Shown here one piece after another: positions 1 through 4,541 of a DNA stretch of 64,000 bases. Position 1 is the stretch's first letter, and every line of letters begins with the position of its first letter. The position numbers were made by a program, and so were the translations under genes. This DNA is from Methanoregula sp. SKADARSKE-2. GTDB lineage: Archaea > Halobacteriota > Methanomicrobia > Methanomicrobiales > Methanospirillaceae. Location of the stretch: NCBI GenBank assembly GCA_030919125.1, contig CP121470.1, forward strand, positions 1,178,001 to 1,242,000, given 5' to 3'. A model generated the notes under the pieces. The model saw only the letters and a program-made list of their open reading frames with translations. It did not search any database and had not been told where the DNA came from.

Positions 1-2
1 AC

Positions 3-626
3 CGGGCCGGCGCTGACAGGACCGAGGAGATGCTTGACTGGGCATACGATCTCGGGATCAGCCACATTACCCTGTACACCTTCTCTACCGAGAACTTCTC
101 ACGAAAAAGAGACGAGGTCGATCATCTCTTTGCTCTCTTCAGGGAGAAATTTCTCCGGGTGGTTGAAGACGAACGGGTCAGACGATACAGGATCCGCGTG
201 CAGATGGTAGGCGATCGGGCCCTCCTTCCTGATGGTCTCAGGGCTGCGGTCGACTCTGCTGAAGAGGCGACAAAAAACAACGCTGGGTTCCATCTGAACA
301 TCGCCCTCGCGTACGGGGGGCGGAACGAGATCGTCCTTGCAGCCCGGGAGATTCTTGAAGCCGTCGCTCAGGGGCAGGTAAGACCGGGGGATATCGATAT
401 CCGGATGGTGGAGGAGCACCTCCACGGCGGCAAGGGCATCCCACCGGTCGATCTCATCATCAGGACCGGGAATGAATGGAGGACCTCCAATTTCCTGCCA
501 TGGCTTGCAAACGGCCACGAATCTGCGGTCTACTTCTGTGCCCCGTACTGGCCCCTCTTCCGGAAGATCGACCTCCTCCGCGCTATCCGTACGTACGAAC
601 AGCGGATGACCGCAAAAAACGGTTGA
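3..626 (+). CDS. uppS: Cis-prenyltransferase (undecaprenyl diphosphate synthase family), catalytic-type subunit, 5' truncated by window edge
   Basis: This family condenses isopentenyl diphosphate into Z-polyprenyl diphosphates, the precursors of the dolichyl-type glycan carrier lipids of archaeal membranes. The reading frame is open from the first bases of the window, so the N-terminus with the catalytic Asp (MDGN) motif lies upstream. Visible family features are the TLYTFSTENFSR segment and the C-terminal region with IRTGNE, SNFLPW and a RKIDLLRAIR helix. The protein ends in QRMTAKNG and lacks the C-terminal RxG motif that single-subunit or NgBR-like partners carry. A second, divergent family member lies convergently about 670 bases downstream and has the complementary features, suggesting a two-subunit enzyme. 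Confidence 0.9.
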   Translation, partial: RAGADRTEEMLDWAYDLGISHITLYTFSTENFSRKRDEVDHLFALFREKFLRVVEDERVRRYRIRVQMVGDRALLPDGLRAAVDSAEEATKNNAGFHLNIALAYGGRNEIVLAAREILEAVAQGQVRPGDIDIRMVEEHLHGGKGIPPVDLIIRTGNEWRTSNFLPWLANGHESAVYFCAPYWPLFRKIDLLRAIRTYEQRMTAKNG

Positions 627-697
627 TCGCCCTGATCTAAAAAAAACAGATCGCGTACTATATTTCCCTGCACGAGAAGAACATCAACTGATACCGC

Positions 698-1228
698 ATG
701 GTAAAAAAAGGGAACGAAGACGGGTGGCGGGAGGCAACGGTTCTCCTCCGGGCTGATATCCTCGATGAGATTGAACGGCAGGGCAGGGATCTTGCGGAAG
801 AATGCAATCTTGCCCTTGCCAAGACAGCAGATCCCCATCCGGTGATTATTGCACAAACTTCCGTGCCTCCGGTAACCAGGACGCTTCCCGGCAGACCATC
901 GGAACCTGCCACTTTCTCCACAACGCCGGTCCTGAACGCCGAAGATCCGCGGATCGCAAAGGCCTTGAAATCTGGGGAGATTTCCTGGCAGAGACCGCAG
1001 GAGGCTCCTCAATCCGCCAGGGCTTCACAGGTCTAGCCTGAGGCATCTTCCCTGGCCCCTGCAAAACCCGCGACGCCAAAACAGGCCGGAAAACAGCGGG
1101 AAGAAGCCACGCCTTCCCGAAGAAAGATGGAAGGCCCGATCAAGAAATTTGTCTCCTCCATGGTAATCCGCAATGCAGACCCCGCTGCCGTTATCATGAA
1201 AGATGCGATGTACGCCGCTTTCGAATGA
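698..1228 (+). pseudogene. Hypothetical protein with RHH/CcdA-like N-terminus, interrupted by an in-frame TAG at 1034-1036
   Basis: The frame opens at ATG 698. Residues about 10-45 (ATVLLRADILDEIERQGRDL onward, then ECNLALA) resemble a ribbon-helix-helix/CcdA-type antitoxin domain with a strand followed by two helices. A Pro/Ala-rich linker follows. A TAG stands at codon 113, but the same frame stays open for another 63 codons (Lys/Arg-rich, then KKFVSSMVIRNADPAAVIMK) to a TGA at 1226-1228, and this downstream part looks coding. Either the gene was nonsense-mutated, the base is wrong, or the short 112-residue form is the product. The RHH assignment is pattern-based and tentative. No toxin-like partner is adjacent. 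Confidence 0.5.
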
Positions 1229-1295
1229 TGGTGCCGGGATAAGAAATTCATCCCGGTCCCTGGAAAAATAACGAACGGTTGGAGGCCGAAACGGC

Positions 1296-1925
1296 TCACT
1301 TTCCAAACCGCCGGATTCGCGACTGGTAATCCCTGAGGATCCGGAGGAAATCGATCTTCCGCAGGTACTTCCAGTTCACATCCGAGAAGAAAAGTTCGGA
1401 ATAGACCGACTGCCAGATGAGGAAGTCAGTGAGGTGATCCCCGCCGCTCTTGATCACCACGTCAGGCGCATACTTGAACGTCAGGTACGACTCAAGCAGT
1501 CTCTCATCGATTTCAGAAGGACGGACCCCGGTCTCCGCCATCCTCCGGATGCAGGAGGTGATCTCCGCCCTCCCGCTCTTCCCGACCGCAACAACCACAT
1601 CCATGCCCTGACCGGAGATCTCTTCTTTGTCCCCGATATGAAGGATCAGGTGGGAGATGGAGCCGATCTTATCGATCTTCTTCCGATACCGGGTTATATC
1701 GTCAGGCCGGGTTGTCCCGATATGGAAGGTGACGCCCCGGATCCCATGAGAATTTACCGGCCGGGGCTTTCTGACCCGCTCCGAGATCTCTAAACACCAC
1801 CTGACGATAAGGAAGAGATTTTCCGGTGCCTCAGCCATATCCTGCCCGCTGATCATGAAACACACATGCCAGGGCAGTTCGGTGATCTGTCGCATGAGCA
1901 GGCGCTCGTAGAGCCAGTAAATCAT
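1296..1925 (-). CDS. Divergent cis-prenyltransferase homologue, NgBR-like non-catalytic subunit
   Basis: The 209-residue product starts MIYWLYERLL, the usual archaeal UppS opening, and keeps the C-terminal fold (PDVVIKSGGDHLTDFLIWQS, SELFFSDV, KYLRKIDFLRILRDYQSR). Where catalytic members have HVxxIMDGNRR, this protein reads HVCFMISGQD, so the metal-binding Asp and the Asn are replaced. It ends RRFGK, an RxG tail like that of the eukaryotic NgBR/Nus1 subunit. Such an Asp-less, RxG-bearing protein is known to pair with a catalytic subunit in Methanosarcina-type heteromeric cis-prenyltransferases. The neighbouring uppS lacks the RxG tail, so the two genes are complementary. An upstream start giving 18 more residues is open but lacks family support. 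Confidence 0.8.
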   Translation of the reverse strand: MIYWLYERLLMRQITELPWHVCFMISGQDMAEAPENLFLIVRWCLEISERVRKPRPVNSHGIRGVTFHIGTTRPDDITRYRKKIDKIGSISHLILHIGDKEEISGQGMDVVVAVGKSGRAEITSCIRRMAETGVRPSEIDERLLESYLTFKYAPDVVIKSGGDHLTDFLIWQSVYSELFFSDVNWKYLRKIDFLRILRDYQSRIRRFGK

Positions 1926-2037: not shown

Positions 2038-2694
2038 ATGCAATCATCCCTGCGGGAAGACTACCTGGAAGCGATCCAGGTCTTTTCTGAAAAAAACCGG
2101 CATGCGCCAACCATAGCAGATCTGGGGACGATACTTGGAAAGGGCTCCCCGGAGGTAGAGGCCGATATCAACGAACTCGTCGCCCGGGGGGAGGTTGCGA
2201 TCGCGGCAGATAATGAGGTTACCCTGACTGCACGGGGAAGAACAATCAGTGCCTCGGTATTAAAAAAACACGAGACCCTCCAGTGTTTCCTCTTGGAGAT
2301 GCTCGGCATGGATGCCCTGGCGGCATCCAGCGAAGCGTGTACCCTTGAGCATACAGTTTCCGATGAGACGATCGACCTCCTGGGAGAGTACCTGAAAAAG
2401 CCACGACGGGTGGGACGGGATATTCCCCGGCGGGGATGTGAAGGCCCCGGATGCCCCTCCTCCTGCTCCCCGTACTCGCTCCTCGATTTCAATGAAGGCG
2501 ATGAAGTGGTCGTCCGCTGTATTCTCGGGCAGTCCTGTGCCAAACGGCTCCTCGATCTCGGGGTGGTCCCGGGAGAACAGGTGAAGATTCGGAGAAAACT
2601 GGGGAACCAGTCACTTGTCCTTCTGGTCAAAGGGTGCGATGTAGCCCTGAGCCCCGAGATTGCGGCAGCAGTTTCCGTGGAACGGTCTTTATGA
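2038..2694 (+). CDS. DtxR/MntR-type metal-dependent regulator fused to a FeoA domain
   Basis: The 218-residue protein begins with a winged-helix region (residues 1-65) typical of DtxR/MntR regulators, followed by a dimerisation helix region ending near residue 125. A Cys-containing linker (CEGPGCPSSC) joins it to a C-terminal SH3-like FeoA domain (FNEGDEVVVR, RLLDLGVVPGEQVKI, CDVALSPEIA). Its TGA overlaps the feoB start as ATGA, so the two are translationally coupled. This layout suggests iron- or manganese-responsive control of the downstream ferrous iron transporter, with the FeoA part acting as transporter accessory or regulatory domain. The fusion is recurrent in methanogens. Confidence 0.85.
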   Translation: MQSSLREDYLEAIQVFSEKNRHAPTIADLGTILGKGSPEVEADINELVARGEVAIAADNEVTLTARGRTISASVLKKHETLQCFLLEMLGMDALAASSEACTLEHTVSDETIDLLGEYLKKPRRVGRDIPRRGCEGPGCPSSCSPYSLLDFNEGDEVVVRCILGQSCAKRLLDLGVVPGEQVKIRRKLGNQSLVLLVKGCDVALSPEIAAAVSVERSL

Positions 2695-4541
2695 AGATAG
2701 CACTTCTCGGGAATCCCGGGGTCGGAAAATCCCTCATTTTTAATCAGCTCACCGGCCTCGGCGTGGAAGTCAACCGGTACCCTGGGTCATCGGTCGCGCT
2801 TGAGACCGGCAACGTCTGTTTCAGGAAAGACCGGATCGAGGTAGTCGATCTCCCGGGCATCTACTCGCTCGACGGGAATTCAGAGGAAGAGACGCTGGTC
2901 CGCAGTTTCCTCGAAGAAGGCGGTGCAGATGCAATAATCGGAGTGCTCGACGCATCGAAATTGGAAAGGAACCTCTATCTCTTTACCCAGGTTGCGGAGT
3001 TTTCTCCGCGGATGATTGTTGTCGTCAACATGGCCGATCTTGCCGAACGGGAAGGTCTTGTACTGGATACCTCAGCCCTTACCCGTCGTCTCGGAGTGCC
3101 CGTCCTTCTTACTGCAGCCTCGGAGGGAAGAAATATCGATCGTATCCTTCCCCTTGCCCTGAGCTCGGCTATGGTACCGGATCTCAGCGTACCCTACGAT
3201 CATCACATCGAGGCCGCTCTCCGGAGCCTTGAGAAGACGCTCGGGACGACCCGACCCAAGAACTTGCTGGCACTCCAGGGTACGGGAGATGACCCCCTTC
3301 TCCTCGGAGCTGCAGAAGGCATCGCGAGGGAGATCGAGCAGCGCCACATGATGTCGGTCCGCCAGATCATCGCTACCAACCGGCACAATTTTTCCCGGGA
3401 GATCGCAGAAACCGTTATCAGCAACCGGGATGGGAAGAAGTCATTCGATCTCGACAGTGTCTTGACCCGGGTCTTCCCGGGGGTGCCGATACTGTGTGCG
3501 ATCCTCTTTCTCCTGCTCCTCTCGGTATTTGTCATCGGGTCATCTATGGAGGAGATGATCGTCCAGGCATTCGCGAGCGGGATCATCGACCCGTTCAATG
3601 TGGCAGGGTTCTCGCCGTTTATCCAGAAAATCGGATTCTCTGTGCTGGTTGCCATCGAGGCGGGTCTTGGGATAGCGTTCCCGTTTGTCTTCACCTTCTA
3701 TATCGGCCTCTCCCTTCTCGAAGACACCGGATACATGACCCGGGCGGCATTCCTTGCGGACCGGGCAATGCACCGTCTCGGGCTGCACGGGGAGGCAATT
3801 ATCCCGATGGTCATCGGTTTTGGCTGCACGGTACCCGCAGTGATGAGCCTGCGGATCCTCAAGACCCGGCGGGAACAGACCATCGCCGCCTTCCTGATTA
3901 CCATGGTCCCCTGTTCGGCCCGGACCGTTGTCATCGCAGGTATCGTGGCAGCGTTTGTCGGGCTTGCCTGGGCCTTCTCGATCTACCTCCTCATCCTCGT
4001 CCTGATCGTGCTCACGGCGGTAATACTCAGCCGGATTACGCCGGGCGAGCAATTCGGCATGATCGTGGAGATGGCTCCGCTCCGGCGGCCTCAGGGGAGG
4101 CTGGTTCTCAAGAAATCCTGGCTCAGGATCAAGGAGTTCCTCTTCATCGCCATGCCGCTCCTCATAATCACCAGCATCGGCCTTGGTCTCTTCCAGTACT
4201 TCGGCCTGATTGATGCCTTCCAGGAGCTGGTTGCTCCGGTAACCGTCACGCTGCTGGGCCTCCCGGGTTATGCCTCGACCGCAATCTTATTCGGTATCTT
4301 CAGGAAGGAACTTGCATTCGAGACGCTTGCAGTCCTTGCCGGCACAGCAAACCTCGGATCGGTAATGAGTTCGGTCCAGCTCTATACATTTGCGATTGTC
4401 AGTGTCCTCTTTGTCCCGTGCATATCCACCATTGCCGTCCTGTACAAACAGCTCGGGGCAAGAATCGCCATCCTTACATCAGTTTACTCTGTAATTCTGG
4501 GCCTTTTAATAGGAGCAATTATAAACCTTCTCATTAAATGA
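2691..4541 (+). CDS. feoB: Ferrous iron transporter FeoB
   Basis: FeoB is a membrane protein with an N-terminal GTPase domain that drives Fe(II) uptake. The 616-residue product starts MKIALLGNPGVGKS, placing the G1 loop at residues 7-14; G3 (DLPG) is at 53-56 and a G4 NMAD motif near residue 118. The C-terminal half has the hydrophobic Gate segments with the conserved GFGCTVPAVM and MVPCSARTVV cysteine motifs. An in-frame ATG 57 bases further upstream lies inside the regulator gene and is not supported. The start overlaps the DtxR-FeoA stop (ATGA), indicating one operon. Slightly shorter than Escherichia coli FeoB. Confidence 0.95.
   Translation: MKIALLGNPGVGKSLIFNQLTGLGVEVNRYPGSSVALETGNVCFRKDRIEVVDLPGIYSLDGNSEEETLVRSFLEEGGADAIIGVLDASKLERNLYLFTQVAEFSPRMIVVVNMADLAEREGLVLDTSALTRRLGVPVLLTAASEGRNIDRILPLALSSAMVPDLSVPYDHHIEAALRSLEKTLGTTRPKNLLALQGTGDDPLLLGAAEGIAREIEQRHMMSVRQIIATNRHNFSREIAETVISNRDGKKSFDLDSVLTRVFPGVPILCAILFLLLLSVFVIGSSMEEMIVQAFASGIIDPFNVAGFSPFIQKIGFSVLVAIEAGLGIAFPFVFTFYIGLSLLEDTGYMTRAAFLADRAMHRLGLHGEAIIPMVIGFGCTVPAVMSLRILKTRREQTIAAFLITMVPCSARTVVIAGIVAAFVGLAWAFSIYLLILVLIVLTAVILSRITPGEQFGMIVEMAPLRRPQGRLVLKKSWLRIKEFLFIAMPLLIITSIGLGLFQYFGLIDAFQELVAPVTVTLLGLPGYASTAILFGIFRKELAFETLAVLAGTANLGSVMSSVQLYTFAIVSVLFVPCISTIAVLYKQLGARIAILTSVYSVILGLLIGAIINLLIK

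Follow-up and report, generated by a model that had tools for sequence, protein, structure and literature searches.

Cis-prenyltransferases of the DHDDS/NgBR type consist of two different chains, a catalytic subunit without the C-terminal RxG motif and an RxG-bearing partner without an active site (PMC7839719, as far as the accessible part of this source states), and the accessible part of a second source gives the same arrangement for plants (PMC13247534). According to the available portion of PMC8131916, MM_0618 and MM_1083 of M. mazei form a heteromeric enzyme with C45-50 products. In the same portion MM_0014 is described as an active homodimer that has no RxG, the C-terminus of one subunit covering the cavity of the other (PMC8131916). 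In the solved enzymes covered there, contact of the RxG arginine with Mg2+ is mediated by water, and the backbone nitrogen of the RxG glycine touches the β-phosphate of the acceptor in some structures (PMC8131916). Since MM_0014 is active without RxG, absence of this motif alone does not prove dependence on a partner.

The heteromer MM_0618/MM_1083 is said to stem from the work of Emi et al. 2019. In Archaeoglobus fulgidus both subunits, Af1219 and Af0707, are reportedly needed and likely form a heterotetramer. The eukaryotic partner (NgBR) has a membrane-spanning N-terminus, and both DHDDS and NUS1 are tied to human disease. The reason for which a catalytically dead partner is needed by dolichol synthases is thus of medical interest too.

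Two complementary genes in one genome

The window analysed here (64,000 nucleotides of the genome of Methanoregula sp. SKADARSKE-2) begins with two convergent frames, the stop codons of which are separated by 669 bases. An earlier note, made from the letters alone, took both for cis-prenyltransferases, and both proteins do exceed the curated PF01255 cut-off of 27 bits: the catalytic one scores 196.3 bits (E 6.6e-58, positions 21–215 of the 219 of the profile) and its partner 76.7 bits (E 2.4e-21, positions 110–219 only, i.e. the C-half). Chance similarity and a frame artefact were rejected for both.

The catalytic subunit (255 aa, plus strand, 1..626 with the stop codon at 624–626; assigned from the open reading frame and PF01255) is open at the window start, its frame there running from 3 to 626. 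Reading of the contig beyond the window places the start of the gene at a TTG at G000:C1:1177859, 142 bases upstream, and the N-terminal DGN that had been proposed as a check is found there, in the form DGNRRYA, in PNHIAIIQDGNRRYARR. The full frame also contains FSTENFSR and RTGNEWRTSNF and ends with YEQRMTAKNG, in agreement with the earlier description of a protein that keeps the catalytic motifs and ends without RxG. The protein combines DGN and the IPP-binding motifs with the absence of terminal RxG, as is characteristic of the catalytic chain of a heteromeric enzyme. The terminal TLGG of the MM_0014 type was not found in it: the end is TAKNG, and the protein groups with the catalytic clade described below, not with the MM_0014-type protein L159. 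Of the proteins with a solved structure, human DHDDS matches it best (E 3.8e-46).

The putative non-catalytic, RxG-bearing partner subunit (209 aa, likewise assigned from the frame and PF01255) lies on the minus strand at 1296..1925 with an ATG at 1925; the longest frame starts at a TTG at 1979. When the partner HVCFMISGQDMAE is aligned to the catalytic HIAIIQDGNRRYA, ISGQD (1839..1853, minus strand) falls in register with (I/M/Q)DGNR of the active enzymes. The alignment thus puts Ser at the place of the catalytic Asp, the loss claimed from ISGQD standing for MDGNR, and most other active-site residues are gone as well. The C-terminus is QSRIRRFGK, and the RFG of its terminal RRFGK (1302..1310, minus strand) represents the RxG motif absent from the catalytic subunit. 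The suggestion that this end resembles NgBR holds for RxG itself and not beyond, as RRFG equally ends single-gene enzymes. The partner joins C-half homology, a lost catalytic Asp and terminal RxG, the features of the second chain of a heteromeric enzyme, and its profile matches human NUS1 over positions 12–197 of 197 (E 1.4e-8). Family models label it undecaprenyl or isoprenyl diphosphate synthase, an annotation that would change, as the protein is named after an activity for which it has no active site.

Structure prediction gave a model of the partner of no more than fair quality (mean pLDDT 76.9, pTM 0.74), which has the fold of the family and ends in a helix at residues 190–207. Among the best 50 rows of a Foldseek search UppS leads and the NUS1 chain 7pb1_B takes rank 14, with the highest target-normalised TM (0.65) of these rows; with VIA no NUS1 chain appears among the best 50 rows, which is uninformative either way. 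A fold singling out NUS1 had been expected and was not seen, the matches spanning the whole family. The alignment behind the model holds mostly single-gene enzymes, and for this reason the model gives NUS1 no preference among the enzymes with this fold.

The assembly (single contig, 1.95 Mb, 95% complete) contains exactly two PF01255 proteins. The earlier note held that a further homologue with both DGN and RxG, sufficient alone, would speak against a split enzyme; no third PF01255 homologue was found genome-wide, a copy in the missing part of the assembly being conceivable. The genes adjoin, as the words "still side by side" had it, but adjacency does not amount to co-transcription because they are convergent. 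The genome also encodes an STT3 oligosaccharyltransferase, with which a carrier lipid would find its use in this organism.

Between the two genes lies a small gene (window 698–1228, plus strand) interrupted by an in-frame TAG at 1034–1036; reading of this codon as pyrrolysine is unlikely, the PylS N-terminal family having no match in the genome. By tblastn the small gene was found in 20 of 60 relatives, two of which show a sub-threshold CcdA-antitoxin-like N-terminus. On its other side the partner gene is adjoined by an iron-uptake unit (window 2038–4541, plus strand), in which a regulator with iron-dependent-repressor and FeoA domains is followed by FeoB.

The pair in the order and the phylum

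The search of the order covered 100 genomes, and 60 of the 99 relatives were fetched, giving 61 loci together with our own. Exactly two PF01255 matches are present in 91 of the 100 genomes (both weak in G025), more than two in five, one in three and none in one; the four genomes with one or no match are 62–77% complete. Every one of the 61 loci carries the catalytic protein with DGNRR. The partner is found in the same stretch in 58, and all 58 partners end with RR[FY]G plus one residue. The genomes of the three loci without a partner in the fetched stretch (L034, L077 and L085 from G001, G071 and G079, respectively) have two PF01255 matches each, and the partner of G079 was read in L307. The order is presumably Methanomicrobiales, as the convergent pair also occurs in a named Methanomicrobiaceae genome, where its proteins are 57% and 51% identical to those of the window.

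A further sample comprised 24 genomes from 20 other families of the phylum, and both proteins were read in all 24. The phylum is called Halobacteriota here after named anchor relatives: by closest named relative the anchors are Methanosarcina (L158; Methanosarcina sp. KYL-1, 77% identity), Methanolobus (L145), Geoglobus (L147), Methanophagales (L148, L149) and Halobacteriales (L131, L134, L136, L138, L140, L141, L155). Over the order and these 24 genomes DGNRR is present in 85/85 catalytic proteins and DGN in 0/82 partners; terminal RxG is present in 81/82 partners, the remaining one having K-F-G. R-x-G is absent from the last six residues of 79/85 catalytic proteins, and in the other six it is out of register. 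These counts leave out L159, which is of the MM_0014 type, and L161, an additional copy in G111 that is degenerate and has no DGN. The profile of the partner alignment A1 (47 of the 58 partners) matches in 196/196 genomes of the phylum (families f1–f26), with a best E of ≤1.8e-31 in 195; in the last one, G106 (E 1.5e-12), the partner was read and its tail is RERRFGR. The complementary loss of motifs is a fixed trait, not a quirk of one genome.

The catalytic proteins were represented by alignment A2 (30 of 61). In a joint alignment all 31 catalytic rows keep D, N, R and R of DGNRR as well as S and N of FSTEN. The partner rows are devoid of the N and both R of DGNRR and, with few exceptions, of its D; the His and the residues of FSTEN are likewise missing. 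D stands in the column of the catalytic Asp in 4/31 of them, and the adjoining R is changed to D or E in 30/31. The Glu of YSEL and the Gly of RxG are retained in 31/31 partner rows.

A tree of 94 rows unites the 31 partner rows in one clade (100/100) and the 31 catalytic rows in a second (100/97), with the Asgard and the Thermoplasmatota rows in one clade each; it is supported by these groupings that each subunit probably had a single origin. The tree is midpoint-rooted and has no eukaryotic rows, and it does not fix the position that the partners take with respect to the single-gene enzymes. The partners are parted from all other rows by a branch of 0.93 changes per column. Such a long branch, together with the missing catalytic residues, would be expected of a functionless, decaying duplicate, but the chance that the second gene is one is practically negligible: the frames are intact, 36 columns are invariant among the 47 orthologues of A1, the profile finds the partner in every genome of the phylum searched, and the partners are one fully supported clade. 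The reading as a pseudogene was rejected on this conservation, phylum-wide presence and single clade, and the conservation indicates that the partner is most probably under purifying selection.

Additional copies occur beside the pair in some genomes. Third enzymes of the MM_0014 type with a T[LM]GG tail are present in a Methanosarcina-type genome (L159) and in the order genomes G056 and G066 (L305, L306). In three genomes of the same genus (G015, G004, G012) an extra diverged or incomplete catalytic copy lies near the intact gene (L302, L303, L304).

One may suppose that the first protein is a self-sufficient homodimer without RxG, as MM_0014 is stated to be in the accessible part of PMC8131916, and that the second has some other role, e.g. 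as a scaffold or regulator. We consider this unlikely. What the partner retains is exactly the C-half with its RxG tail, in all families of the phylum that were read; the third copies of the MM_0014 type are separate proteins; and the same part of that source describes the pair of M. mazei as a heteromer (PMC8131916).

The layout of the pair is recurrent too. Among the 58 pairs of the order 56 are convergent, one is tandem and one divergent, and the 3' ends overlap in 13. The genes are convergent and close in 9 of the 24 genomes of other families (f10, f11, f14, f15, f17, f19, f22, f23 and f26). In f21 they share a strand with 9 kb between them, and in the remaining ones they are unlinked. Recurrent adjacency in distant lineages fits an ancestral layout and does not imply a single transcript.

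A gene for a radical SAM protein (333 aa, plus strand, G000:C1:1176861-1177862, i.e. L003:6861-7862) overlaps the start of the catalytic gene. Its place in 61/61 loci of the order is immediately upstream and in the same orientation, at a distance of −1 to 53 bases from the chosen catalytic start in 59; in L091 and L092 the overlap is larger, a matter of start choice. In genomes of f7, f8, f12 and f25 (including Methanosarcinaceae- and Archaeoglobaceae-like ones) it is also upstream, with a small gene between, which is DUF2551 in both cases tested. The haloarchaeal loci read do not contain it, and among the matches listed it stands beside the enzyme of no named non-Halobacteriota genome (one match, L172, is named "Euryarchaeota archaeon", with the group unstated). 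A search for a solved relative of the protein found none. As a guess, it might act on the same carrier lipid.

Enzymes outside the phylum and descent of the split

A scan with the degenerate motif MDGNRRYA gave at least 117 loci of named genomes, to which 20 loci of an Asgard search were added; 127 catalytic-type frames were classed, five frames cut by the locus end and five loci without a match being left out. Among the matches listed, RxG ends 81/127 frames. No Halobacteriota name occurs among these 81, about ten of which are named in general terms only, e.g. "archaeon" or "Euryarchaeota archaeon". The 46/127 frames without terminal RxG, among the same matches, include 42 named as Halobacteriota lineages and four that are not, namely two Aenigmatarchaeota, one Thermoplasmata and one Endozoicomonas, with the tails NFG, TFG, KFG and NFG. 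As to the number of copies, 36 genomes were considered among the matches listed: all 24 taken as non-Halobacteriota (four of which, L173, L203, L225 and L226, carry only general names) have one PF01255 protein that extends to position 219 of the profile. Of the 12 inside the phylum 11 have two; the exception is an ANME-1 record.

In the Asgard phylum to which a Heimdallarchaeota genome belongs, 76 of 79 genomes have a PF01255 match, 71 exactly one and five two, and the PF01255 search found a C-half-only partner in none of the 79. All 20 Asgard loci read, as well as L182 and L241, have DGN and terminal RxG in one protein. In archaea outside Halobacteriota (Thermoplasmatota, Asgard and others) the enzyme is mostly a single protein with both motifs.

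These data bear on the relation to the eukaryotic enzyme. The division of labour is alike in both, and the nearly full-length match of the partner profile to NUS1 could be taken as a sign that the archaeal and eukaryotic heteromers share one split ancestor. Such common descent is, however, very unlikely in view of the Asgard genomes, with their predominance of single matches, their missing C-half-only partner and their undivided enzymes. As the Asgard relatives are unsplit, the archaeal split is probably independent of DHDDS/NgBR. The distribution of the subunits suggests that the gene was duplicated in the stem lineage of Halobacteriota. It seems rather likely that the split arose once in the Halobacteriota stem from a single-gene enzyme like those of Thermoplasmatota and Asgard, became the long-chain enzyme of nearly all members, and repeated the DHDDS/NgBR solution independently, with tail-to-tail adjacency, often with overlapping 3' ends, as the ancestral state.

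Proposed enzyme and comparison with described systems

Very probably the two proteins are subunits of one heteromeric cis-prenyltransferase, the only family member found in the genome, in which the partner lends its RxG to the active site of the catalytic chain and the product is a long polyprenyl diphosphate. Their binding, mutual dependence, product and use are what we infer from the motifs and their conservation. The first subunit would bind the allylic primer and IPP and perform the chemistry; the second, devoid of catalytic residues, would dock via the usual dimer face, so that its C-terminal RxG completes the active site of the first. The RxG arginine and the glycine backbone may help to hold Mg2+ and the diphosphate of IPP. 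The long polyprenyl diphosphate formed would be the precursor of a dolichol-type sugar carrier, which in turn may serve the STT3/AglB oligosaccharyltransferase. By analogy with MM_0618/MM_1083, the best reading is that the pair is the sole carrier-lipid synthase of the genome.

The earlier note had taken heteromeric cis-prenyltransferases as known from Methanosarcina and eukaryotes, which for Methanosarcina agrees with the statement on MM_0618/MM_1083 in the accessible part of PMC8131916, and had proposed that the same split operates here. The latter gains support, as an inference, from the counts of DGNRR and DGN, from RxG in nearly all partners and from the heteromeric M. mazei pair.

If the split did arise separately, it offers a second natural experiment on catalytically dead partners, with small subunits, hundreds of pairs for covariation analysis and single-gene sister lineages. 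A literature search returned no phylum-wide survey of archaeal heteromeric enzymes by title or abstract, a weak negative result with subscription journals mostly outside its reach; a search directed at Af1219/Af0707 listed unrelated papers only.

Among the described systems, homodimeric UppS and the single-gene archaeal enzymes share family and fold with the window pair but have DGN and RxG in one chain. Human DHDDS/NUS1 (NgBR) is alike in its catalytic and non-catalytic RxG-bearing subunits and in the sequence matches given above, and differs in that the Asgard relatives are unsplit, so that the archaeal split looks independent. The Archaeoglobus pair Af1219/Af0707 is close in that the Geoglobus-like catalytic and partner rows share the two clades of the window proteins, whereas its genes are unlinked in the f8 genomes read. 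As to the Methanosarcina pair, L158 and L160 of the Methanosarcina-type genome fall in the same two clades, but there the pair is unlinked and accompanied by a third enzyme of the MM_0014 type, while the window pair is convergent and a third was not found. The heteromeric kind of enzyme is thus already known from Methanosarcina and, reportedly, from Archaeoglobus; as far as our searches show, what is new is its phylum-wide breadth, the unsplit state of the Asgard genomes searched and the recurrent tail-to-tail linkage of the two genes.
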